DNA of 64,000 nucleotides from Magnetospirillum sp. XM-1 (lineage in GTDB: Bacteria > Pseudomonadota > Alphaproteobacteria > Rhodospirillales > Magnetospirillaceae): assembly GCF_001511835.1 (NCBI RefSeq), contig NZ_LN997848.1, positions 1,798,001-1,862,000 of the forward strand. The letters run 5' to 3'. Both the position numbers and the translations under genes were made by a program. The stretch's first letter is position 1; the number at the start of each line of letters is the position of its first letter. Of this stretch, positions 2,575 to 15,826 are shown piece after piece. The notes under the pieces are model-generated. The model worked only from the letters and a program-made list of their open reading frames with translations. It searched no databases and was not told the origin of the DNA.

Positions 2575-2722
2575 GGAAGGCTCTCCTTACTAACCGCCGA
2601 GGATGGCGGCAAATGCGTTAACAACGGATGAAGCGGCGGTTTGACGCCGGTCCGGAGTTTAGATGTGGCCCCGCCAATGGCCGCCTGCTACCCTCTCGTG
2701 CCATCAGAACGGGGGAAGGCGC

Positions 2723-3370
2723 ATGCTCGACAACACGGCCGTGTACCAGGTCAATCTCGACCACCGGACCGACCGCTGGCAGCAATGCCAGGAGAACCAC
2801 GCGGCCATGGGCTTCGAGTCCATGGGCATCCAGCGTGTTTCCGCCGCCTACGAGCAGGGTTACGCCCATCTGGGCTGCACCAAGTCGCACCTGAAGGCCT
2901 ATACCCGCTTCCTCACCGAGGATTCGCGGGACTACGTCATGGTGCTGGAGGACGATTTCGACTTCCGCATCAGCCGCGACGAGCTGGCCCAGCGCATGGC
3001 GTTCCTCGAATCCACCGGCAAGGACTGGGACGCGGTGCTGCTGACCGCGTCGCAGATCAACGGCTTCGCCACCGAGCATCCCGGCCTGGGCCGCGTGTTC
3101 GAATCGCTGACCACCGCCGGCTACATCACCCGGCGGACCTATGTGCCCAAGCTGATCGAGATTTTCGTCGAGTCCCTGGCCAACCTGGAAAAGTTCCGCC
3201 GGTTCGAGCCGCGCGACCTGATCACGTCGCGCTTTGCCAGCGACGTGTTGTGGCAGCGGCTGCAGCGGGCCGACAACTGGTTCGTCTTCGTGCCGGCGGT
3301 GGGCGAGCAGCGCCCGTCCTATTCCGACGCCATGGGCGGCTACGTGGACTACCGCTCCATTTCCATCTGA
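2723..3370 (+). CDS. glycosyltransferase family 25 protein
   Basis: A 215-residue protein with the features of family 25 (LPS-type) glycosyltransferases: an N-terminal VYQVNLDHRTDRW, the GCTKSHLKAY block near residue 52, and the metal/nucleotide-sugar motif VLEDDFDF near 73. Family members transfer galactose or glucose to lipooligosaccharide or to hydroxylysine. The ATG at 2723 has GGGGGAAGG just upstream; the frame extends 20 codons further but without family similarity. It is divergent from the radical SAM/methyltransferase run, which suggests a small surface-glycan or glycoprotein modification locus. Donor and acceptor are unknown. Confidence 0.8.
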   Translation: MLDNTAVYQVNLDHRTDRWQQCQENHAAMGFESMGIQRVSAAYEQGYAHLGCTKSHLKAYTRFLTEDSRDYVMVLEDDFDFRISRDELAQRMAFLESTGKDWDAVLLTASQINGFATEHPGLGRVFESLTTAGYITRRTYVPKLIEIFVESLANLEKFRRFEPRDLITSRFASDVLWQRLQRADNWFVFVPAVGEQRPSYSDAMGGYVDYRSISI

Positions 3371-3380
3371 GGACGCCGGC

Positions 3381-4337
3381 TCAATCGGCCGGGCGCGCCA
3401 TTCCGAAGCTTTGCTGGATCTCGGCGAAGATCATGATCAGCTGGCGCTGCACCCAGTCGAGGAATTCGTGCAGGCCGTGGGCGATCACGTCGTCGATGGT
3501 CTTTTCTGTCAGCACGGCGCGCAGTTCGTCCATCAGCTCCAGCGCCTTGACCCCGCCGCGTAGGCTATAGCGGGTGCGCAGCTGGCTCAGCAGCCATTCC
3601 ATCTGGCGCACGCACAAGATCACCGAGCGCGGGAAGGAATCCGAGAACAGCAGGAAGGCCGCCACCGATTCGGGCGTGATCTTGCCCGCCATCACCCGGC
3701 GCGACGCCTGATAGCCGGCCACCGCCTTCAACAGGGCGTTCCAGTGGCTGGTGTCGAGCGCCGAGCCTACGTCCTCGGGCCGGGGCAGCAGGGTGTGGTA
3801 CTTGATGTCCAGCAGGCGGGTGGTCTGGTCGGCGCGCTCGATGGACTTGCCCAGGTGATAGAAGTAGTGGGCCTGGTCGCGATAGAAGGTGCCCTCGGTG
3901 ATGCCCATGTGCAGCTGGCAGGCCTCCTTGATCTCCTCGCACAGGGCGGCCAGGTTGGCGGGCGCCACGGCGTTGGCCGACAATCCCGTCATCCAGCTGT
4001 TCATGCGGTTGATCTGGCGCCACATCTCGATGGAGATCAGCGGGCGCAGCGTCCGGGCGTTTTCCCTCGCCGCCTTGACCGAGGACAGGATGGAATTGGG
4101 GTTGTCGGGGTCCAGGATGTAGAAGTGCGGCACCGTCTTGGCGTCGGCCACCCGGTGGCGGGCGAAGAAGCGCTCCTCGTCGGCGTTGATCTGCACCACC
4201 GCCAGCCAGTTGCGCCCCGCCCGGTCACGGGCGAAGGTCTCGGCCACGCCCAGGATGCGGGCCAGGTTCTCGGCCCGCTCCATGTAGCGGGCCAGCCAGA
4301 AGATGCAGTCGGCGTTGCGGGCGAGTAACTCGGTCAT
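3381..4337 (-). CDS. alpha-E domain protein (DUF403)
   Basis: A 318-residue, largely helical protein beginning MTELLARNADCIFWLARYMERAEN, the conserved N-terminus of the alpha-E family. These proteins are encoded almost always beside circularly permuted ATP-grasp enzymes. Comparative genomics places them in predicted amidoligase systems that build or attach peptide-like groups, but no member's reaction is firmly established. Its ATG (4337-4335) overlaps the TGA of the upstream ATP-grasp gene by four bases, so the two are translationally coupled. A second alpha-E domain occurs at the end of the fused protein encoded at 9334-11895. Confidence 0.85.
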   Translation of the reverse strand: MTELLARNADCIFWLARYMERAENLARILGVAETFARDRAGRNWLAVVQINADEERFFARHRVADAKTVPHFYILDPDNPNSILSSVKAARENARTLRPLISIEMWRQINRMNSWMTGLSANAVAPANLAALCEEIKEACQLHMGITEGTFYRDQAHYFYHLGKSIERADQTTRLLDIKYHTLLPRPEDVGSALDTSHWNALLKAVAGYQASRRVMAGKITPESVAAFLLFSDSFPRSVILCVRQMEWLLSQLRTRYSLRGGVKALELMDELRAVLTEKTIDDVIAHGLHEFLDWVQRQLIMIFAEIQQSFGMARPAD

Positions 4338-5809
4338 TGGCCTTCTCCCGCCAGAACCCAGGTATCCTTCGACCCGCCCCCCTGGGACGAGTTGACCACC
4401 AGCGATCCCTCCTTCATGGCCACCCTTGTCAGGCCGCCGGCCAGCACCTTCGTCGATGCGCCGGTCACCGCGAAGGGGCGGAAATCCACGTGGCGGGGCT
4501 GGGTGCCCTTGTCCGTCAGTGTCGGGCTGACCGACAGGCCGATCATGGGCTGGCTGATGTAATTGGCCGGGTCGGCCTTGAGTTTGGCGCGGAACTCGTC
4601 GATCTCGGATTTGCTGGCCTTGGGGCCCAGGATCATGCCGTAGCCGCCCGATTCGCCCACCGGCTTGACCACCAGATGCTCCAGGTTGTCCAGCGTGTAC
4701 TGCAATCCCTCTGCCTCGCGGCAGATGAAGGTCTCGACGTTGGGAAGGATGGCGTCCTCGCCCAGGTAGTACTTGATGATGCGCGGCATGTAGGCGTAGA
4801 CCGCCTTGTCGTCGGCCACCCCGGTGCCCGGCGCGTTGGCCAGCGACACGTTGCCCTTGCGGTAGGCCTCCATCAGCCCCGGCACGCCCAGCATGGAATC
4901 GGGGCGGAACACCTTGGGGTCGAGGAAGGCATCGTCGATGCGGCGATAGATGCTGTGGACCGGGGCCCGTCCGGCGGTGGTCCGCATGTAGACCCGGTCC
5001 TTCTCCACCACCAGATCGCGGCCCTCCACCAGGGGCACGCCCATCTCGCGGGCCAGGAAGACGTGCTCGAAGAAGGCCGAGTTGTAGATGCCGGGCGACA
5101 GCAGCACCACGCAAGGGTCCTCGACCCCCGCAGGCGCGATCTCTTCCAGGGCCCGGCGCAGCATCAGGCCGTAATCGTCCACGGCCCGCACCCGGGTGCC
5201 TTCCATCAGATCGGGAAAGCATTGCAGCATCAGGTTGCGGTTCTCGACCACGTAGGAGACGCCGGACGGCGTGCGGGCATTGTCTTCGAGCACCCGGAAC
5301 AGGCCTTCCTGGTCGCGGATCAAATCGATGCCGCACACATGGGAATAGGTGCCGCAGGGCACTTTCATGCCGCGCATGAAGTCGTGGAAATTGGCGTTGC
5401 CCAGTACCAGATCGGCGGGCACCACCTTGTCGGCCAGGATCTTCTGGCCGCCGTAAAGGTCGGCCAGGAACAGGTTGATGGCGGCGACCCGCTGGATGAT
5501 CCCGGCCTCGAGCCGCGACCACTCGGCGGCCGTGATGACGCGGGGCAGGACGTCGAAGGGCAGGATGCGGTCGATGGCGTCCTTGTCGGAATAGACGGTG
5601 AAGGTGATGCCCAGATCGAACAGCTCCTTCTCCGCCCGGGCGGCGCGGCGGCGCAGGTCGTCGGGGTCCAGCGCGTTGAGGCGCTGGGCGATGGCCGCCA
5701 GCTCGGCCGCGCCGTCATCGCGGGCCGACAGCGCCTCGCAGAAGAATTCGGCGGGGTCGTAGCCCGAAAGCAGGCCGGGGCCGGGCAGGGCGAGTCTTGA
5801 TCGGGTCAT
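4334..5809 (-). CDS. circularly permuted ATP-grasp type 2 protein (DUF404/DUF407)
   Basis: A 491-residue stand-alone circularly permuted ATP-grasp enzyme. The signature VLEDNARTPSGVSYVVENR lies near residue 160-180, and a glycine-rich region (VVKPVGESGGYGM) near 390 should form the ATP-binding loop. ATP-grasp enzymes join a carboxylate to an amine using ATP, and this subfamily is predicted to be a peptide ligase of unknown substrate. The ATG at 5809 has GGGGGGAG eight bases upstream and a plausible promoter at 5849-5877. It is followed by alpha-E with a 4-base overlap and is divergent from the transglutaminase/DUF2126 gene. Confidence 0.88.
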   Translation of the reverse strand: MTRSRLALPGPGLLSGYDPAEFFCEALSARDDGAAELAAIAQRLNALDPDDLRRRAARAEKELFDLGITFTVYSDKDAIDRILPFDVLPRVITAAEWSRLEAGIIQRVAAINLFLADLYGGQKILADKVVPADLVLGNANFHDFMRGMKVPCGTYSHVCGIDLIRDQEGLFRVLEDNARTPSGVSYVVENRNLMLQCFPDLMEGTRVRAVDDYGLMLRRALEEIAPAGVEDPCVVLLSPGIYNSAFFEHVFLAREMGVPLVEGRDLVVEKDRVYMRTTAGRAPVHSIYRRIDDAFLDPKVFRPDSMLGVPGLMEAYRKGNVSLANAPGTGVADDKAVYAYMPRIIKYYLGEDAILPNVETFICREAEGLQYTLDNLEHLVVKPVGESGGYGMILGPKASKSEIDEFRAKLKADPANYISQPMIGLSVSPTLTDKGTQPRHVDFRPFAVTGASTKVLAGGLTRVAMKEGSLVVNSSQGGGSKDTWVLAGEGQ

Positions 5810-5848
5810 TGCTTCAGCTCCCCCCTTCGAAAATGCGGCGCGAAGTGC

Positions 5849-5877
5849 AGTCTATCGCGGCAATTCGAATTGATCAA
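5849..5877 (-). promoter_or_regulatory. candidate sigma-70-type promoter for the ATP-grasp/alpha-E pair
   Basis: On the minus strand TTGATC (5877-5872), a 17-base spacer and TAGACT (5854-5849) match the -35/-10 arrangement. The predicted start of transcription lies about 30 bases before the ATG at 5809. The surrounding 5810-5986 is the divergent intergenic region and is richer in A+T than the genes on either side. Confidence 0.45.
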
Positions 5878-5986
5878 ATTTAAGGCATGCATGGCAGCAT
5901 GCTGAAAAATGAAGCTTTTGCTGCAGCCCGATGCCGCTTGCTGTGCTAGGCTGACCATCGCTTTCCGCCACCCTCTTCGGATGATC

Positions 5987-8900
5987 ATGGGCATTCACGT
6001 CAAGCTTCGCCATACCACCCGCTACACGTATGACCGACCGGTCGTTCTGTCGCCGCAGGTGGTGCGGTTGCGCCCCGCGCCCCACAGCCGGACCCCGGTT
6101 CTGTCCTATTCCCTGGACATCGAGCCCAAGACCCATTTCATCAACTGGCAGCAGGACCCCCAGGGCAACTGGCTGGCCCGGCTGGTGTTTCCCGACACGG
6201 TGGAGTCCTTCACCGTCGACGTGGACCTGGTGGCCGACCTGTCGGTGGTGAACCCCTTCGACTTCTTCCTGGAGCCCGAGGCGGAGCACTTCCCCTTCAC
6301 TTACGACCACGTGCTGGATCACGAACTGAAGCCCTTCCTTCTGTGCGAGGAGGCGGGGCCGCTGCTCGACGCCTACGTGGCGGCCATCGACACGTCGCGG
6401 CCGGTGCAGACCACCAATTTCCTGGTGGCCCTGAACCAGCGGCTGCAAGCCGACATCAGCTACACCATCCGCATGGAGCCGGGGGTGCAGACCCCGGAGC
6501 AGACCCTGGCGCTGAAGACGGGATCGTGCCGCGATTCCGCCTGGCTGCTGGTGCAGATCCTGCGGCGCTTAGGGCTGGCGGCCCGTTTCGTCTCGGGCTA
6601 CCTGATCCAGCTGGTTCCCGACGTCAAGCCGCTGGACGGCCCGGTGGGCGCGGCCGCAGACTTCACCGACCTGCACGCCTGGACCGAGGTCTACCTGCCC
6701 GGCGCCGGCTGGATCGGTCTGGACCCCACCTCGGGCCTGCTGGCGGGCGAGGGGCACATTCCGCTGGCCGCCTCGCCCGATCCCACCAGCGCGGCGCCCA
6801 TCACCGGCGCGGTGGAAATGTGCAAGGTGGAGTTCGAGCACCACATGGGCGTCACCCGTGTCCTCGAGACTCCGCGCGTCACCAAGCCCTATACCGAGGA
6901 GCAGTGGCAGGCGGTGCTGGCGCTGGGCGACGCGGTGGACGAGAGGCTGAGGCAGGGCGACGTGCGCCTGACCCAGGGCGGCGAGCCCACCTTCGTCGCC
7001 ACCACCGACCCGGACGGCGAGGAGTGGAACACCGGCGCCGTCGGCCCCACCAAGCGGGCCTTCGCCGACACCCTGATCCGCCGGCTGCGCGACCGCTTCG
7101 CGCCCGGCGCGCTGATCGCCTATGGCCAGGGCAAGTGGTATCCGGGCGAAAGCCTGCCGCGCTGGGCCTTCTCGCTGATCTGGCGCGACGACGGCGAGGC
7201 GGTGTGGCGGAATCCTAAGCTGATCGCCCTGGAGACCGAGGACAACGCCCCCACCGTCGATCAGGCCCGCGACTTCGCCCAGGCGCTGTGCCGCCACCTG
7301 AACGTCGATTCCGATTACGCCCAGCCCGCCTGGGAGGACCCGGCCTATTACCTGCTGCGGGAAAACGCCCTGCCCATCAACGTCGATCCTATCGATTCCA
7401 AGCTGGAAAACCCCGAGGAGCGCGCCCGGCTGGCCGGGGTGTTCAAGCGGGGGCTGGGCACCCCCACCGGCTACGTCCTGCCGCTGCAGCCCTGGCAGGC
7501 CAGGGACGCCTTCCGCTGGATCACCGGCCCGTGGCCGACGCGCGACGGCAAGCTCTTGACCATTCCCGGCGATTCGCCCCTGGGCCTGCGCCTGCCGCTG
7601 GAATCCCTGCCGTGGATCGCCGCCGATTCCTATCCCTATCACCACGAGCGCGACCCCTTCGAGCCGCGCGGCCCCTTGCCCCCCGCCCGGCGCCAGCCCG
7701 CCCGGACCGAGCGGGTCCCCGGTTCGGGGGCGGCCAAGGCCACGGTGCTGCAACAGGTGCCGGTGGATTTGCGGCCCGTGGAGACCGCCAAGGGGCTGGT
7801 GTCCGAGAACGTGCGCACCGCTTTGTGCGTCCAGCCCCGCGACGGCCGTCTCAACGTCTTCCTGCCGCCGGTGGAAACCGCCGAGCAGTATCTGGACCTG
7901 ATCGAGGCGGTGGAACTGGCCGCCGCCGAGTTCGGCACGCCGGTGCATGTGGAAGGCTATCCGCCGCCCAACGATCCGCGCCTTAAAGTTATCAAGGTCA
8001 CCCCCGATCCCGGCGTCATCGAGGTCAACGTCCAGCCGGTGGAGCACTGGCGCGATCTGGTGGCCGGCACCGAGATCCTCTACGAGGAAGCCCATCAGGC
8101 CCGCCTGGGCACCGAGAAGTTCATGATCGACGGCCGCCACGTGGGGACGGGGGGCGGCAACCACATGGTGCTGGGCGGCTGGACCCCCGCCGACAGCCCG
8201 TTCCTGCGCCGCCCCGATTTGCTGGGCAGCCTGATCCGCTTCTGGCAGAACCATCCCAGCCTGTCGTACCTGTTCTCCGGCCTGTTCATCGGCCCCACCA
8301 GCCAGCATCCCCGCGTCGACGAGGCCCGTGACGACACGCTTTACGAGCTGGAGATCGCGCTGGGGCAATTGCCGCACCGGGGCACCAGCGTGGCGCCCTG
8401 GGTGGTGGACCGGGTGCTGAGAAACGTGCTGATCGATGCCAGCGGCAACACCCATCGCACCGAGATCTGCATCGACAAGCTTTATTCCCCAGACGGTCCC
8501 ACCGGGCGGCTGGGGCTCGTCGAATTCCGCGCCTTCGAGATGCCGCCCCATGCCCGCATGAGCCTGGTGAGCCAATTGCTGCTGCGCGCCCTGGTCGCCC
8601 GCTTCTGGGAGGAGCCCTACACCGAGAAGCTGGTGCGCTTCGGTTCGGCGCTTCGCGACCGCTACATGCTGCCTCACTGGATCGAGCAGGACCTGGACGA
8701 GGTGCTGGAATGGCTGGCGGCGGGCGGCATCGCCTTCGACAAGGCGTGGTTCGCCCCCCATCTGGAATTCCGCTTCCCCATGGTGGGGGCCGTCGCCCAT
8801 CGCGGCATCCGCATCGAGTTGCGCACCGCGCTGGAGCCCTGGCACGTCATGGGCGAGGAGCCCGGCGCGGGCGGCACCGTGCGCTACGTGGATTCGTCGG

Positions 8901-9313
8901 TGGAGCGCCTGCAGGTCAAGGTCAGCGGACTGGTGGGCGATCGCTACGTGGTGGCCTGCCAGGGCCGCCGCGTGCCGCTCAACCCCGTCGGCGCCTCGGG
9001 GGAATGGGTGGCGGGCGTGCGCTATCGCGCATGGTGGCCCACCTCCTGTCTGCATCCCACCATCGGGGTGCATTCGCCGCTGATCTTCGATCTGGTGGAC
9101 AGCTGGACGGGCGAGGCGGTGGCGGGCTGCACCTACCACGTCGCCCATCCGGGCGGGCGCAATTACGACAGCTTCCCGGTCAATTCCTACGAGGCCGAGG
9201 CGCGGCGCCGCGCCCGCTTTCTCGCCTTCGGCCATTCCCACGGGCCGTTGCGGGTGGAAGCTGGCGCGGTGCATCCCGACTACCCAAATACACTGGACCT
9301 TAGGCTACAATAG
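5987..9313 (+). CDS. transglutaminase-like protein with DUF2126 domain
   Basis: A 1108-residue protein. The N-terminal 280 residues form a bacterial transglutaminase-like domain with an intact Cys-His-Asp triad: C181 in KTGSCRDSAW, H230 in DLHAWTEVY and D246 in GLDPTSG. The rest is DUF2126, recognisable from LTQGGEPTFV and the YGQGKWYPGESLPRW block. Family knowledge links this architecture to circularly permuted ATP-grasp/alpha-E operons, where the transglutaminase part may cleave or transfer amide bonds. The start MGIHVKLRHTTRY at 5987 matches the family N-terminus; the Shine-Dalgarno is weak and an ATG at 5981 is nearly as good. It is the first gene of the plus-strand half of the locus. Confidence 0.88.
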   Translation: MGIHVKLRHTTRYTYDRPVVLSPQVVRLRPAPHSRTPVLSYSLDIEPKTHFINWQQDPQGNWLARLVFPDTVESFTVDVDLVADLSVVNPFDFFLEPEAEHFPFTYDHVLDHELKPFLLCEEAGPLLDAYVAAIDTSRPVQTTNFLVALNQRLQADISYTIRMEPGVQTPEQTLALKTGSCRDSAWLLVQILRRLGLAARFVSGYLIQLVPDVKPLDGPVGAAADFTDLHAWTEVYLPGAGWIGLDPTSGLLAGEGHIPLAASPDPTSAAPITGAVEMCKVEFEHHMGVTRVLETPRVTKPYTEEQWQAVLALGDAVDERLRQGDVRLTQGGEPTFVATTDPDGEEWNTGAVGPTKRAFADTLIRRLRDRFAPGALIAYGQGKWYPGESLPRWAFSLIWRDDGEAVWRNPKLIALETEDNAPTVDQARDFAQALCRHLNVDSDYAQPAWEDPAYYLLRENALPINVDPIDSKLENPEERARLAGVFKRGLGTPTGYVLPLQPWQARDAFRWITGPWPTRDGKLLTIPGDSPLGLRLPLESLPWIAADSYPYHHERDPFEPRGPLPPARRQPARTERVPGSGAAKATVLQQVPVDLRPVETAKGLVSENVRTALCVQPRDGRLNVFLPPVETAEQYLDLIEAVELAAAEFGTPVHVEGYPPPNDPRLKVIKVTPDPGVIEVNVQPVEHWRDLVAGTEILYEEAHQARLGTEKFMIDGRHVGTGGGNHMVLGGWTPADSPFLRRPDLLGSLIRFWQNHPSLSYLFSGLFIGPTSQHPRVDEARDDTLYELEIALGQLPHRGTSVAPWVVDRVLRNVLIDASGNTHRTEICIDKLYSPDGPTGRLGLVEFRAFEMPPHARMSLVSQLLLRALVARFWEEPYTEKLVRFGSALRDRYMLPHWIEQDLDEVLEWLAAGGIAFDKAWFAPHLEFRFPMVGAVAHRGIRIELRTALEPWHVMGEEPGAGGTVRYVDSSVERLQVKVSGLVGDRYVVACQGRRVPLNPVGASGEWVAGVRYRAWWPTSCLHPTIGVHSPLIFDLVDSWTGEAVAGCTYHVAHPGGRNYDSFPVNSYEAEARRRARFLAFGHSHGPLRVEAGAVHPDYPNTLDLRLQ

Positions 9314-9327
9314 ACGTTACCAACGTC
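9313..9327. repeat. short perfect inverted repeat between two amidoligase genes
   Basis: GACGTT-ACC-AACGTC is a perfect 6-3-6 inverted repeat. It begins at the last base of the transglutaminase stop codon and ends seven bases before the start of the fused ATP-grasp gene. It may be an operator or a small mRNA hairpin; it has no T-tract, so it is not a normal terminator. Confidence 0.4.
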
Positions 9328-9333
9328 GGGATT

Positions 9334-11895
9334 TTGGGGGAGGGGAAAATTCCGCGTCGTCTGCGTTCCCGCGTCGAGGGTCCGGCCTGGGCCTTCAACA
9401 CCGCCTACCATCCGCTGCCGGGTGCCTTCGACGAGGTGATGGCGCCGGGCGGCGCGGTCCGTCCCCATTGGAAGGGCTTCATCGACGGCATCGACCGCCT
9501 GGGGCCGGAAGAACTGGCGCGGCGCTGGGACATGGGGCAGCGCCTGATCCGCGACAACGGCGTCACCTACAACGTCTATGGCGACCCGGCGGGGCTGGAT
9601 AGGCCCTGGCGTCTCGACCCCCTGCCGCTGATCCTGTCGGCCGAGGAATGGGCGGGTCTGGCCAAGGGCATCGAGCAGCGGGCCGATCTGCTGGATTCTG
9701 TGCTGGCCGATCTTTACGGCGAGCGGTCGCTGGTGGGGCGCGGCGTCATCCCGCCCTCGGCACTGCACGCCAATCCCGCCTTCCTGCGGCCCTGCCACGG
9801 CTGGCTTCCGGCCGGCGGCCACTGGCTGCACCATTACGCCGCCGATCTGGTGCGCGGCCCCGACGGCGAGTGGCGGGTGCTGTCCGACCGCACCGAAAGC
9901 CCGTCGGGCGCCGGCTACGCCCTGGAGAACCGCACCATCGTCAGCCGCGTCCTGTCGGAATTCCACCGCTCGCTGCAGGTGGAAAGGCTGTGGCCGTTCT
10001 TCGAAGGCCTGCGCCGCTCGCTGCAGAACCTGTCGGTGCGCCACCGCGACGATCCGCGCATGGTGCTGCTGACGCCGGGCCCCTACAACGCCACCTATTT
10101 CGAGCACGCCTTCCTGGCCCGCCAGCTGGGCGTCACCCTGGTCCAGGGCGAGGATCTGACGGTGCGCGACAACACCGTCTACCTGAAGGCGCTGACCGGG
10201 TTGCAGCAGGTGGACGTCATCTTCCGCCGCACCGGCGGCACGTGGTGCGATCCCCTGGAGCTCAGGGGCGATTCCCAGCTGGGCGTCGCCGGGCTGCTGC
10301 AATCGGCCCGGCGCGGCAACGTGGCGCTGTTGAACGCCATCGGCACCGGCCTGCTGGACGGGGCCTCGCTGCTGGGCTTCATGCCGGCCCTGGCCCGCTC
10401 CTTGCGGGACGAGCATCTGATCCTGCCCTCGGTGCCCAGCTGGTGGTGCGGCGAGCCCGCCGCCCTGGATTACGTCTTGAAGAACCTGGAGCGTCTGGTG
10501 ATCCGCCCGGCCTTCGGACGGCGCGACCAGCCGGTGATCGGCGCCGCCCTGTCGGGCGCCCAGGCCGCCCAGATGCGCGCCGCCATCGCCGCCCGGCCCT
10601 GGGATTGGGTGGGCCAGGAGGTGCGGACCACCTCGACCCTGCCGGTATGGTCCGCCGAAGGGATCGAGCCCCGCCATTGCGTGCTGCGCGTCTTCGCCGT
10701 GCGCACCGAGAAGGGCTGGCAGGCCATGCCGGGCGGGCTGGCCCGGCTGTCGTCGGAACGCGACCTGCTGGCGTCGCGTTTGCAGACCGGCGGCGGCGGC
10801 AGCAAGGACGTGTGGATCGCCGCACCGCCCCAGCGCCTTACGGTGTCCGCCGTCCGCCCGCAGGCCCCGGCGGTGCGCCTGACCCGCGAGAACCGCGACC
10901 TGCCGTCGCGCGTCGCCGACAACATGTTCTGGCTGGGCCGCTATCTCGAGCGCTGCGAGGCCACCACCCGGCTGCTGCGCGCCGCCCTTGTGCGCATCGA
11001 GGACAGCCTGGCCGAGGGCGATTCCGCCCAGGCGCTGGCCATGATCCGCACCATGGCCGCCCTGGGGCTGTCGGTGCCGGAAGAGGACGGGACCGAGCCG
11101 GTGGAGGCGCTGGCCGACCGGCTGGTCGCCCACCATCTGGCCAGCGATGGATTGGGGCTGGCCGGCTGCGTCGAGCGCCTGCTGCGCATCGTCGTCCATC
11201 TGCGCGACCGCCTGTCCAACGACACTTGGCGGGCGCTGCACCTGCTCAAGGACGAGATCGGCCTCTTGGCCGCCGAGGCCGGCGGCGGCGACGTGCTGGG
11301 CCGGCTCAACGCCATGGTGCTGACCATGCAGGCGGTGAGCGGCCTGGCCATGGAGAGCATGACCCGCGGGCCGCAATGGCTGTTCCTGGATTCGGGCCGC
11401 CGCGTCGAGCGCGCCATCGCCATGGTCGAGATGGTCAGCGGTGCGCTGGCCGACGTGGAGGGCGAGGCAATGGTGCCGCTGGACCTGCTGCTCGAGACCT
11501 GGGACAGCGTGATGACCTATCGCTCGCGCTATCTGTCCACGCCCCGTCTGGCCGGGGTTCTCGACCTGCTGCTGTGCGACGAGGCCAATCCGCGCTCGCT
11601 GGGCTTCCAGCTCGCCACCCTGGAAGGCCACATGAACCGGCTGGCCGCCATGGGCGAGCATTCCGGCTTCTACAAGCCCGAGCAGAAGCTGATGACCGTG
11701 CTGTGCGGCACCATCCGCACCACCGACGTCATGGTGGTGTCGCGCTTCGACCGCGACGGCGGCTATCACGACGCGCTGCGGCTTTTGGACATGCTGCGCT
11801 CGCGGCTGTGGGAGCTGTCCGAGCAGGTGTCGCGCACCTATTTCATCCATGCCCAGTGGCGGCTGCCCACCGCGCCCATGGAGGAACTGGCGTGA
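9334..11895 (+). CDS. fused circularly permuted ATP-grasp and alpha-E protein
   Basis: One 853-residue polypeptide joins the two activities that are separate genes at 3381-5809. Residues about 15-500 are circularly permuted ATP-grasp (AFNTAYHPLPGAFDEVM near the N-terminus, LSDRTESPSGAGYALENR near 190); about 520-850 are alpha-E (SRVADNMFWLGRYLERCEA). The glutamate/aspartate of the usual EDNARTPSG signature is here SDRTESPSG. There is no ATG near the expected N-terminus. The TTG at 9334 is taken as start, but the purine run GGGGGAGGGG lies inside it, so an ATT at 9349 is also possible. The following transglutaminase overlaps its stop by four bases. Confidence 0.85.
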   Translation: MGEGKIPRRLRSRVEGPAWAFNTAYHPLPGAFDEVMAPGGAVRPHWKGFIDGIDRLGPEELARRWDMGQRLIRDNGVTYNVYGDPAGLDRPWRLDPLPLILSAEEWAGLAKGIEQRADLLDSVLADLYGERSLVGRGVIPPSALHANPAFLRPCHGWLPAGGHWLHHYAADLVRGPDGEWRVLSDRTESPSGAGYALENRTIVSRVLSEFHRSLQVERLWPFFEGLRRSLQNLSVRHRDDPRMVLLTPGPYNATYFEHAFLARQLGVTLVQGEDLTVRDNTVYLKALTGLQQVDVIFRRTGGTWCDPLELRGDSQLGVAGLLQSARRGNVALLNAIGTGLLDGASLLGFMPALARSLRDEHLILPSVPSWWCGEPAALDYVLKNLERLVIRPAFGRRDQPVIGAALSGAQAAQMRAAIAARPWDWVGQEVRTTSTLPVWSAEGIEPRHCVLRVFAVRTEKGWQAMPGGLARLSSERDLLASRLQTGGGGSKDVWIAAPPQRLTVSAVRPQAPAVRLTRENRDLPSRVADNMFWLGRYLERCEATTRLLRAALVRIEDSLAEGDSAQALAMIRTMAALGLSVPEEDGTEPVEALADRLVAHHLASDGLGLAGCVERLLRIVVHLRDRLSNDTWRALHLLKDEIGLLAAEAGGGDVLGRLNAMVLTMQAVSGLAMESMTRGPQWLFLDSGRRVERAIAMVEMVSGALADVEGEAMVPLDLLLETWDSVMTYRSRYLSTPRLAGVLDLLLCDEANPRSLGFQLATLEGHMNRLAAMGEHSGFYKPEQKLMTVLCGTIRTTDVMVVSRFDRDGGYHDALRLLDMLRSRLWELSEQVSRTYFIHAQWRLPTAPMEELA

Positions 11896-12767
11896 AGTTC
11901 AGGGTCCGCCACACCACTACCTACAAGTACACCGAGCCGGTGCAGCTGTCCCACCACGCCGCCCATCTGCGGCCGCGCGCCGTGGACGGCCAGAGCGTCG
12001 ATCAGGTCAAGATCGCCATCCGCCCGACGCCGGAAGTGCTGCACGAAGGCGGCCGGGACTATTTCGGCAATCCCATCACCTTCTTCACCATCCAGAGCCC
12101 CCATTCCACCCTGGTGATCGACGCCTCGTTCGTGGTGGAGACCGCCGGCCAGCCGCTTCTGCCCCAGATCGCCGTTCCCGCCTGGGATTCGGTGCGGCTC
12201 AACACCTGGTCGGGGGCGCGCGGCATCGACGAGGGGGTGATGGATTTCGTCTTCGCCTCGCCCCAGGTGCCGCCCCTGGCCGAGGCCGAGCGTTATGCCC
12301 AGCCCAGCTTCGCCCCCGGCCGGCCGCTGACCGAGGCGGTGATGGATTTGAACCGGCGCATCCACGCGGATTTCACCTTCGACCCCGAGGCCACCAGCGT
12401 GGGCACGCCGCTGGCCCAGGTCTTCCAGCAGCGGCGCGGCGTCTGCCAGGACTTCGCCCATGTGGGCATCGCCTGCCTTCGCGCCATGGGGTTGGCGGCG
12501 CGCTACGTCAGCGGCTACATCCGCACCAAGCCGCCGCCGGGCAAGGAAAAGCTGGTGGGCGCCGACGCCTCGCACGCCTGGCTGTCGGTCTACCAGCCCG
12601 GCTGGGGCTGGCTGGACCTCGATCCTACCAACGACATGGCGGCCGGACAGGACCATATCGTGGTAGCCTGGGGGCGCGATTACGACGACGTCACCCCGGT
12701 GCGCGGCGTGGTGCTGGGCGGCGGCGAGCATCAGGTGCTGGTGGCCGTGGATGTGCTGGAGTTCTGA
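11892..12767 (+). CDS. transglutaminase family protein
   Basis: A 291-residue protein with the bacterial transglutaminase-like fold: a beta-rich N-terminal half starting VKFRVRHTTTYKYTEPV, then the catalytic core with C185 (RRGVCQDFAH), H228 (ADASHAWLSVY) and D244 (LDLDPTND). The triad is complete, so it should be an active cysteine amidase, protease or transferase. It starts with GTG at 11892, overlapping the stop of the ATP-grasp/alpha-E fusion in a GTGA, so translation is coupled. It is the shorter of two transglutaminases in this locus and lacks DUF2126. The substrate is unknown. Confidence 0.88.
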   Translation: MKFRVRHTTTYKYTEPVQLSHHAAHLRPRAVDGQSVDQVKIAIRPTPEVLHEGGRDYFGNPITFFTIQSPHSTLVIDASFVVETAGQPLLPQIAVPAWDSVRLNTWSGARGIDEGVMDFVFASPQVPPLAEAERYAQPSFAPGRPLTEAVMDLNRRIHADFTFDPEATSVGTPLAQVFQQRRGVCQDFAHVGIACLRAMGLAARYVSGYIRTKPPPGKEKLVGADASHAWLSVYQPGWGWLDLDPTNDMAAGQDHIVVAWGRDYDDVTPVRGVVLGGGEHQVLVAVDVLEF

Positions 12768-12792: not shown

Positions 12793-14445
12793 ATGATCGC
12801 CAGGGTTCTCATGGCCGCTTTGCTGCTGCTCGCCACCCTTCCGGCGCGGGCCGAGGATCTGGCCGGGACCCTGAAGAAGGTCGGGGAGACCGGAACCCTG
12901 ACGCTGGGCATCCGCGAATCCTCCTATCCGCTGTCCTATCTGGACGACGCCCAGAAGCCGGTCGGCTATCACATCGACATCTGCCTCCGGCTGGCCGAGG
13001 CGGTGAAGGCTAGGCTGGCCCTGCCTGCCCTCAAGGTCGAAACCCTGCCGGTGACCTCGCAGAATCGCATCCCCCTGGTGCAGAACGGCACGGTGGACCT
13101 GGAATGCGGCTCGACCACCAACAACGAGGCGCGCTCGCGTCAGGTGGCCTTCGCGCCGACCACCTTCGTCACCAAGGTGCGCATGGCGGTGAAGAAGTCC
13201 TCGGGCATCACCAGTATCGCGCAGCTGGCCGGCAAGCCGGTGGCCATCACCACCGGCACCACCAGCGTTCAGCTGGTCCGCGCCCACAAGAAGGGCCAGG
13301 GCGTGGTGTTCAAGGAGGTCTACGGCAAGGACCACGCCGATTCCTTCCTGCTGCTGGAAAGCGATCGCGCCGTGGCCTTCATCATGGACGACAACCTGCT
13401 GGCCGGGCTGATCGCCACCTCGAAATCTCCCGACAGCTACGCCATCGTCGGCGAGGTGCTGAACGTCGAGCCCATCGCCATCATGCTGCGGCGCGACGAC
13501 CCCCAGTTCAAGGCGCTGGTGGACGACACGGTCAAGGCCATGATGGCCTCGGGCGAGGTGGACCGGCTTTACGCCAAGTGGTTCATGTCGCCCATTCCGC
13601 CGCGCGGCATCAACATGCACTTCCCCATGAGCGGGCAGCTGAAATCCCTGATCAAGGCGCCCGCCGACGCGCCCGCCGAGGCCTTCGCCCGCAAGACCGC
13701 CGCCCAGGGCGGCTATCGCTGGAACTGGGGCATCTATTTCGAGCCGGTGCCGTCGGGGGACGAGACGTACCTCTCCTGGCTGGCCGTCGCTTTGGTCTGG
13801 ACGCTGGCCATCTCGCTGGCCTCCTGGGCTTTGGCCCTGGTGCTGGGGGTGGTGGCGGGGGCGGCGCGCACATTGCCCGACCGCCGCGTCGCAGGCGCCG
13901 CCACCGCCTATGTGGAGCTGTTCCGCAACATCCCCCTGCTGGTGCAGATGTTCCTGTGGTTCTTCGTCATCCCGGAATTGCTGCCCGCCTCCTGGGCGCT
14001 GTGGGTCAAGCAGGAGATGCCCGCCAAGGAATTCTTCATCGCCGTCATTTGCCTGGGCCTCTTCACCTCGTCCCGGGTGGCCGAGCAGGTGCGCGCCGGC
14101 ATCGAAAGCCGCCCCAAGGGCCAGCGGCAGGCCGCCCTGGCCTTGGGCATGACCGAGGCCCAGGTGTTCCGGCACGTGACGTTGCCGGTGGCGCTGCGGG
14201 TGGTCATTCCGCCGCTGACCTCGGAATTCATGAACGTGTTCAAGAACTCCTCGGTGGCCTTCGCCATCGGCATGGCGGAGCTGACCTTCGTGGCGCGCCA
14301 GATGCAGGAGGAATCCGAGCAGGGCATCGAGACCCTGGCGGCGGTGACGCTGCTGTATTTCCTCTGCGCCTTCCTGGCCAACCGGGCCATGGCCCTGGTG
14401 GAGCGGCGCACCCGCGTGCCGGGTCTGTTGGGAGTGGGGCGCTGA
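12793..14445 (+). CDS. fused glutamate/aspartate-binding protein and ABC permease (GltI-GltJ)
   Basis: A single 550-residue frame. It has a signal peptide ([20 protein letters not shown]), a periplasmic amino-acid-binding domain to about residue 290 ([30 protein letters not shown], ending [12 protein letters not shown] as GltI does), a short linker, and from about 308 ([11 protein letters not shown]) a complete GltJ-like permease with the EAA loop ([18 protein letters not shown]). In enteric bacteria these are separate proteins. Fusion tethers the receptor to the membrane complex. ATG at 12793 follows AGGGGAG. gltK follows with a one-base overlap (TGATG), then gltL. Import of glutamate/aspartate is the likely role; the exact ligand is inferred. 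Confidence 0.88.
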
Positions 14446-15101
14446 TGTTCGCCGAGCTCGACTTTTCCGTCATCGCCGCCAGCCTGCCCTTCATCTGGTC
14501 GGGGCTGCTGTTCTCGCTCAAGCTCACTTTTGTGGCCATGAGCGGCGGCATCGTGCTGGGCACCCTGCTGGCCCTGGCCCGCCTGTCCGGGCCGGCGTGG
14601 CTGGCCGGGGCGGCGGCGGCCTATGTCAACGTCATGCGCTCCATTCCGCTGGTCCTGGTGATTCTGTGGTTCTTCCTGGCCATTCCGCTGCTGACCGGCG
14701 CGCCCATGGGGGCCGAGACCTCGGCGCTGATCACCTTCACGGTGTTCGAGGCGGCCTTCTATGCCGAGATCATGCGGGCCGGCATCAACAGCGTGCCCAA
14801 GGGCCAGACCTGGGCGGCCCAGGCGCTGGGCCTGAGCCGGGTGCAGATCATGGCCTTCGTGGTGCTGCCCCAGGCTTTCCGGGCCATGATCCCGCTGCTG
14901 CTGACCCAGACCATCGTCTTGTTCCAGGATTCGTCCCTGGTCTACGCCATCGGCGCCAAGGACCTGCTGAAGGCCGCCGAGGTGGCGGGCAAGAACTACA
15001 ACCGGCCGGTGGAGATGTACCTCTTCGCCGCCGGCCTCTATTTCGTCCTCTGCTTCTGCCTGTCCCAGGTGGTGAAGCGTCTTGCCGGAGCGCGGAGATG
15101 A
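14445..15101 (+). CDS. gltK: glutamate/aspartate ABC transporter permease
   Basis: A 218-residue HisM-type inner-membrane permease with several hydrophobic segments and the cytoplasmic EAA loop near residues 120-140 ([18 protein letters not shown]), which contacts the ATPase. It would pair with the permease half of the preceding fusion protein. It starts at the ATG that shares its A with the TGA of the fusion gene, and its own TGA overlaps the ATG of the ATPase by four bases, so all three transporter genes are translationally coupled. The length is normal for GltK. Confidence 0.9.
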
Positions 15102-15826
15102 TCGAGATCAAGGGCGTTTCCAAATGGTACGGCAGCGTCCAGGTGCTGGACGATTGCACGACCAGGGTCGCCAAGGGCGAGGTGGTGGTGGTGTGCGGCC
15201 CGTCGGGGTCGGGCAAGTCGACGCTGATCAAATGCGTCAACGGCCTGGAGCCCTTCGACGGTGGCTCGATCACCGTCAGCGGCGTGGCGGTCGAGGCGCC
15301 GGACACCGACCTCACCCGCCTGCGCGCCCGCGTCGGCATGGTGTTCCAGCATTTCGAGCTGTTTCCCCACATGAGTGTGATGGAAAATCTGTGCCTGGCG
15401 CCGGTCAAGGTGTTGGGGCGCCCGGCCGACGAGGCCCGCGCCAAGGCGCAAGGCTTGCTCGAACGGGTCGGGCTGGCCGCCCACGCCGCCAAGCACCCGG
15501 CCCAGCTGTCCGGCGGCCAGCAGCAGCGCGTCGCCATCGCCCGCGCCCTGGCCATGGACCCCGATTGCATGCTGTTCGACGAGCCCACCTCGGCGCTCGA
15601 CCCCGAGATGATCGGCGAGGTGCTGGACGTCATGGTGGAACTGGCGCGTGACGGCATGACCATGATGGTGGTCACCCACGAAATGGGCTTCGCCCGCACC
15701 GTCGCCGACCGGGTGGTGTTCATGGATCACGGCCGCATCGTCGAGGACGCCCCCAAGGAGGCATTCTTCGCCGCGCCCTCCAGCGAGCGCGCCACCCAGT
15801 TCCTGGCGCGCATCCTGCGGCATTGA
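15098..15826 (+). CDS. gltL: glutamate/aspartate ABC transporter ATP-binding protein
   Basis: A 242-residue ABC ATPase of the polar amino-acid (GlnQ/GltL) type, with all motifs intact: Walker [10 protein letters not shown] near 35-43, Q-loop (FQHFELFPH), signature LSGGQQQR, Walker [14 protein letters not shown] and the switch histidine in VVTHEMGFA. It powers the importer formed with the GltI-GltJ fusion and GltK. It starts in an ATGA overlap with gltK. No clear rho-independent terminator follows; the next gene begins 89 bases on with its own candidate promoter. Confidence 0.93.

Follow-up and report, generated by a model that had tools for sequence, protein, structure and literature searches.

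A likely amide-bond ligase and a putative pseudo-ligase paralogue in one ATP-grasp/alpha-E locus of Magnetospirillum sp. XM-1

A locus of Magnetospirillum sp. XM-1 carries the same two domains twice, once as a split pair of ATP-grasp and alpha-E genes and once as a single fused gene, which raises the question of what both forms do side by side. The window, that is the whole stretch of DNA analysed, was 64,000 nucleotides long (contig NZ_LN997848.1, positions 1,798,001 to 1,862,000), and the locus lies at positions 3381-12767 of it. A sequence-only reading had proposed that its two ligases make two different bonds. This proposal was not supported in that form, because the fused ATP-grasp looks dead when its residues are compared with those of the split protein. 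On balance, we lean towards a locus made of one working amide-bond machine and a dead paralogue. The five genes of the earlier reading were borne out by open reading frames and Pfam matches. The Alpha-E, CP_ATPgrasp, transglutaminase and DUF2126 models were all matched far above the Pfam cut-offs in the window. The features were as follows.

3381-4337, minus strand: alpha-E protein of the split pair, 318 amino acids (Pfam PF04168, E 3.2e-84)
4334-5809, minus strand: circularly permuted ATP-grasp protein (CP_ATPgrasp) of the split pair, 491 amino acids (PF14403/PF04174, E 6e-159)
5810-5986, no strand: divergent intergenic region between the split ATP-grasp and DUF2126 genes
5987-9313, plus strand: transglutaminase-type domain plus DUF2126 (DUF2126 1331 bits; the open reading frame opens at 5909)
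9334-11895, plus strand: fused CP_ATPgrasp and Alpha-E protein, 853 amino acids (Pfam; start codon uncertain)
11892-12767, plus strand: small transglutaminase-type protein, 291 amino acids (PF08379, PF01841)

The two ATP-grasp proteins of the window were paralogues with 34% identity. In the split protein the predicted Mg/ATP site was complete (D162, E175, N177, K335, K382, G388-G389, D442, N473). Residues were counted, in split numbering, over 102 split and 109 fused sequences taken from the retrieved loci. D162, E175, N177, K335, K382, G388, G389, D442 and N473 were invariant in every scorable row of the split set, and E175 and N177 were both kept in 101 of 101 scorable sequences. In addition, the split protein matched the structure 3n6x with E 9.6e-159. 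With its complete glutathione-synthetase-type residue set, the split ATP-grasp is likely an ATP-dependent carboxylate-amine ligase. The alpha-E protein of the split pair has two E-R motifs (E20-R21 and E167-R168), and each of these four residues was present in 98 or more of the 105 rows of split alpha-E and of the 104 rows of fused alpha-E.

However, the fused ATP-grasp gave a different result. Its fold was kept and the predicted Mg/ATP residues were replaced (S183, R185, A343, R390, V449), which gave S/R/A/R/V at the split positions E175/N177/K335/K382/D442. The E-x-N motif had become S-x-R, and both lysines and the glycine loop were gone. The structure 3n6x (Mfla_0391, 'putative glutathionylspermidine synthase') belongs to the same ATP-grasp family as both window proteins and was matched by the fused protein with E 7.6e-88. 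It has the E-x-N motif (as E-D-N) and the glycine loop, whereas the fused protein of the window has neither. The loss extended over the fused sequences, in which E175 was retained in 1/109 and N177 in 0/109, with arginine at the latter position in 92/109. K335 was substituted in at least 102 of the 109, and the glycine loop was left as G388 in 5 and G389 in 24. The best 120 of 7998 fused-protein matches, which may overlap with the 109 locus-derived sequences, agreed with these counts (N177 0/120, arginine 112/120, K382 44/120). The sole fused gene among the 109 with the glutamate of E-x-N was that of Geminisphaera colitermitum (L177, 4757-7201), where the asparagine was replaced by arginine. 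The earlier statement that all catalytic motifs are intact was right for the split ATP-grasp and for both transglutaminase triads described below and wrong for the fused ATP-grasp, where split-invariant residues were lost. In all, the fused ATP-grasps compared here appear to have no catalytic activity, and the fused protein is best read as a conserved pseudo-ligase. The loss of the predicted active site throughout the fused family is a new point of this analysis. Inactive CP-ATP-grasp versions were reportedly noted earlier in the Pfam text (Iyer et al. 2009), and no priority is claimed for this point.

The same residues raise the possibility that the fused ATP-grasp was repurposed and binds a nucleotide or acyl phosphate without the usual metal site, or performs some other transfer. 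One replacement dominates, namely the arginine at N177, and some further residues were invariant across 45 aligned fused proteins, so a function of the pocket may have been kept. On the other side, the expected Mg and ATP-phosphate binding positions of glutathione synthetases were gone, and there was no positive evidence of chemistry. We regarded repurposing as possible and rather unlikely.

The relation between the two forms was then seen in their co-occurrence. Of 240 genomes from the class, 83 had alpha-E and 34 had DUF2126. Gene-by-gene annotation covered 69 of the 83 alpha-E genomes and gave the split pair in 66, the fused gene in 32 and DUF2126 in 34. Neither the fused gene nor DUF2126 was present in 29 of the 66 genomes with the split pair. 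Conversely, 30 of the 32 fused-gene genomes also had the split pair, and the other two were incomplete (G099 and G127, 84% and 74% complete). By these counts the split pair can occur by itself, and the fused set depends on the split pair. This one-way dependence of the fused form on the split form is new here. The fused gene occurred without DUF2126 in 5 of the annotated genomes, and DUF2126 without the fused gene in 7, in one of which (G124) the fused gene was broken by a contig end. In a phylum-wide draw, five genomes with weak best alpha-E matches, among the matches listed, all had a split-type ATP-grasp as judged by score and open reading frame length. The earlier reading had placed all genes in one pathway and had named conservation of the split pair apart from the fused set as evidence to the contrary. 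The 30/32 figure supported one pathway with the fused set as an add-on, and independent conservation was found in one direction only. A pairing of the split with the fused protein may be inferred.

Gene order gave a similar picture. The genes were adjacent as had been proposed, and the arrangement was recurrent. The 80 named DUF2126 loci compared were the closest matches to the DUF2126 of the window and included several short contigs. In 11 of them the window order recurred, with the split pair pointing away from the DUF2126, fused and transglutaminase genes. By the names in the sequence records, nine of the 11 were Burkholderiales and two were Nitrospirales. The halves were less than 0.4 kb apart, as in the window, in 3/11, and gaps of 2.6-3.3 kb were found in 8/11. 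These eight (L116, L123, L125, L138, L147, L152, L159 and L180) came from Burkholderiales, and the gap was often flanked at both ends by sigma-54-like sites. A split gene lay inside the retrieved flank in 38 of the 80 loci, and both split genes in 34. Split genes lay within 6 kb of the DUF2126/fused set in 8 of the 69 annotated genomes, the window counted. When mapped onto a tree of split proteins (101 sequences), nearness to the DUF2126/fused set required 9 changes of state, at least 6 of them on well-supported branches, so the linkage was re-made or lost repeatedly and was not inherited once. In L169 and L019 the DUF2126 and fused genes were several kb apart, whereas close spacing was usual elsewhere.

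The starts of the window genes were tightly coupled, as the earlier reading had stated, with 4 nucleotides shared by the alpha-E and ATP-grasp genes of the split pair (4334/4337) and a 4-nucleotide start/stop overlap between the fused and small transglutaminase genes (11892/11895). The start of the DUF2126 gene was probably the ATG at 5987, as judged from the start of its homologue L041. In the divergent intergenic region a GCATGC inverted repeat was seen at 5885-5902, classed as terminator-like on the minus strand, and could be an operator. Besides the two alpha-E genes of the locus, the genome (4.99 Mb, two contigs) gave no further one at E 0.001. The closest database match to the fused protein was from Paramagnetospirillum caucaseum, with 91% identity, so the organism very probably belongs to Paramagnetospirillum.

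The DUF2126 protein had been counted as a transglutaminase, which was true of its triad and left out its other half. A predicted model of DUF2126 had a glutamine-synthetase fold by structure comparison, with a best Foldseek E of 0.019 and 6-14% identity among the matches listed. Unlike glutamine synthetase, it has large insertions and a fused cysteine amidase domain. The model makes DUF2126 the third ligase-type fold at the locus and a candidate glutamine-synthetase-fold ligase, and this model support is new here. Pupylation likewise uses a glutamine-synthetase-type ligase. The Cys-His-Asp triad was intact in both transglutaminase-type proteins of the window (C184/H227/D243 in the small one). 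In the DUF2126-linked transglutaminase rows Cys, His and Asp were present in 110, 111 and 111 of 113, and the remainder were gaps. Other transglutaminase rows had Cys in 134, His in 137 and Asp in 137 of 153, with 10-15 gaps and few other letters. The DUF2126 set was found in six phyla, with taxa as named in the sequence records. A transglutaminase gene adjoined the split pair in 13/29 genomes with the fused/DUF2126 set elsewhere and in 23/29 without the set. The split set and the fused/DUF2126 set may share amidases.

The locus is a member of the CP-ATP-grasp/alpha-E/transglutaminase/Anbu system that Iyer et al. predicted in 2009 from comparative genomics (described in PMC5666114 and PMC6376114), and its earlier assignment to a predicted amidoligase system with no known product was right. 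It has the same domains, adjacent ATP-grasp and alpha-E genes and a transglutaminase nearby. It differs in that Anbu is encoded elsewhere in the genome and a divergent DUF2126, fused and transglutaminase operon is attached. No Anbu gene was found in the operon or elsewhere in the window locus. The Anbu homologue (G000:C1:4639068-4639616) was on the same contig about 2.8 Mb away, with no partner genes within 19 kb. An Anbu-type open reading frame was present in 35/101 class loci examined, and many other genomes had a split pair with no Anbu next to it, so Anbu is not strictly required there.

Evidence on regulation came from sites and from published work on relatives. Sigma-54-like sites were scored at 12 consensus positions in the 500 bases ahead of the domain start. 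A score of at least 10 was found for 31/101 split ATP-grasp genes and 30/111 DUF2126 genes, compared with 2.1% and 2.7% of random positions in the same loci, which were mostly coding sequence. The fused gene was the better control, with 8/109 against a random 2.9%. Scores of at least 11 were found upstream of 10 split, 16 DUF2126 and 1 fused genes. Among 15 loci with divergent halves, the window counted, a site of at least 10 was on both sides in 8, on one side in 3 and on neither in 4, the window being among these four. Sigma-54-like sites ahead of both halves in part of the relatives are a new observation. In Burkholderia cenocepacia, mutation of ntrC lowered I35_5080-5083 by log2 8.2, 9.4, 9.4 and 6.0, respectively (PMC5491218). 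By description these genes encode DUF404/407, DUF403, a transglutaminase and a large transglutaminase, content that fits the gene order in B. arboris L110. They would form a co-oriented NtrC-dependent run, if orientation follows L110, whereas the halves of the window are divergent with no visible sigma-54 site. The Pseudomonas putida set PP_2685-2688 is a split set with Anbu, and its Anbu, transglutaminase and CP-ATP-grasp genes were up on nitrogen limitation (PMC3325844, PMC8050072). PP_2687, probably the alpha-E gene from its position, was likewise raised. Values were given as 11.1, 6.6 and 7.1 for PP2685-2687 under nitrogen limitation (PMC3325844), and as log2 4.44 for PP_2685 and 3.99 for PP_2688 on nitrate versus ammonium (PMC8050072). 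The split set of P. putida is expressed with Anbu, which partly answered the earlier question of expression apart from the fused set. A marine metagenome study tied these domains to urea metabolism (PMC3597751). By analogy with these relatives, the set is probably induced by nitrogen limitation through NtrC and sigma-54.

In the favoured reading of one working machine and a dead paralogue, the split ATP-grasp would be the likely ligase and alpha-E its partner. DUF2126 would be a second ligase-type domain carried on a cysteine amidase domain, and the small transglutaminase a second, free amidase. The fused protein would have no catalysis of its own and would serve as a scaffold, a holder of substrate or a regulator, probably together with the split ligase that its presence depends on. 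A small peptide or a protein may be given an amide or isopeptide group by the ligases, and the cysteine enzymes, with the separately encoded Anbu homologue, may trim or remove this group. Nitrogen limitation would turn the set on. The gene anatomy fits such a system, in which amide or isopeptide ligation would depend on ATP and the set would have cysteine amidases of its own, with Anbu encoded elsewhere. The ATP-grasp of Yersinia bercovieri released phosphate from ATP (PMC6376114).

Several points weigh against this reading. K382, one of the two lysines, was still present in 46/109 fused proteins, and loss of the canonical site may leave room for unusual chemistry. Residues were mapped onto E. 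coli Gss from a short and statistically weak profile alignment (probability 0.1%, E 0.4) and the common fold. In a FastTree tree of 208 sequences a single branch (local support 100) lay between the split and fused sequences, and the tool warned of long branches meeting, one of them a fused row placed next to the split group. The intergenic region 5810-5986 had no sigma-54-like site of at least 8/12 on either strand, and the best scores in the 500 bases on each side were 8 and 7, so nitrogen control here is drawn from the relatives only. In published Y. bercovieri pull-downs, no specific interactions among Anbu-operon proteins were found (PMC6376114).

The same components could tag proteins for turnover by the proteasome-like Anbu in nitrogen starvation, functionally like pupylation. 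The DUF2126 fold predicted by the model, the presence of Anbu in class loci and in this genome, and the nitrogen response of relatives are consistent with tagging, which had been proposed in print from gene context (PMC6376114). However, no gene for a tag peptide or an unfoldase stood out next to these loci, with no search aimed at either. The Y. bercovieri Anbu had no amidase activity beyond background and did not interact specifically with its operon partners (PMC6376114), and the Anbu of this genome adjoins none of its partners. We regarded tagging, too, as possible and rather unlikely. It was quite improbable that both ATP-grasp proteins are active ligases making two different bonds in one pathway. 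The fold kept in both at their identity, and R444, R462, D482 and W484, present in 97-103 of 109 fused proteins, would agree with it. The near absence of E175 and N177, the replaced K335 and the few remaining glycines argue against it, and the fused domain was less like that of the window than the split domain was in 22/23 genomes.

Neighbouring genes were observed on both sides. An adjacent divergent radical S-adenosylmethionine (SAM) protein and SAM methyltransferase lie at 1048-2574 and 345-1043, both on the minus strand. The radical SAM protein was under the Pfam cut-off and far under that of the NCBIfam viperin model. A glycosyltransferase-25-like open reading frame (2663-3370, plus strand; Pfam just under cut-off) is convergent with the alpha-E gene and ends 10 bases away. 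Glu/Asp-type ATP-binding cassette (ABC) transporter genes (12793-15826, plus strand), with the solute-binding protein and first permease as one polypeptide, begin about 25 nucleotides past the small transglutaminase gene on the same strand and are possibly co-transcribed. A small-molecule cluster including these neighbours has physical proximity in its favour and is largely refuted and very improbable, with homologues of the radical SAM, methyltransferase, glycosyltransferase, solute-binding protein-permease and second permease genes in 0/180 related loci and of the ABC ATPase in 8/180 (E 1e-30).

A more specific form of the system was considered, namely a Gram-negative nitrogen-starvation conjugation in which an active ATP-grasp needs a pseudo-ligase adaptor and a DUF2126-amidase attaches and removes a peptide group for turnover by Anbu. 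We thought it a long shot. If true, such conjugation would be a counterpart of pupylation outside Actinobacteria. These proteins are common, with alpha-E in 172/299 genomes of a phylum-wide draw (completeness at least 95%), yet literature searches gave no known product for them. The split protein would be the ligase to assay, the fused protein a probable pseudo-enzyme, DUF2126 a third candidate and nitrogen limitation the condition.
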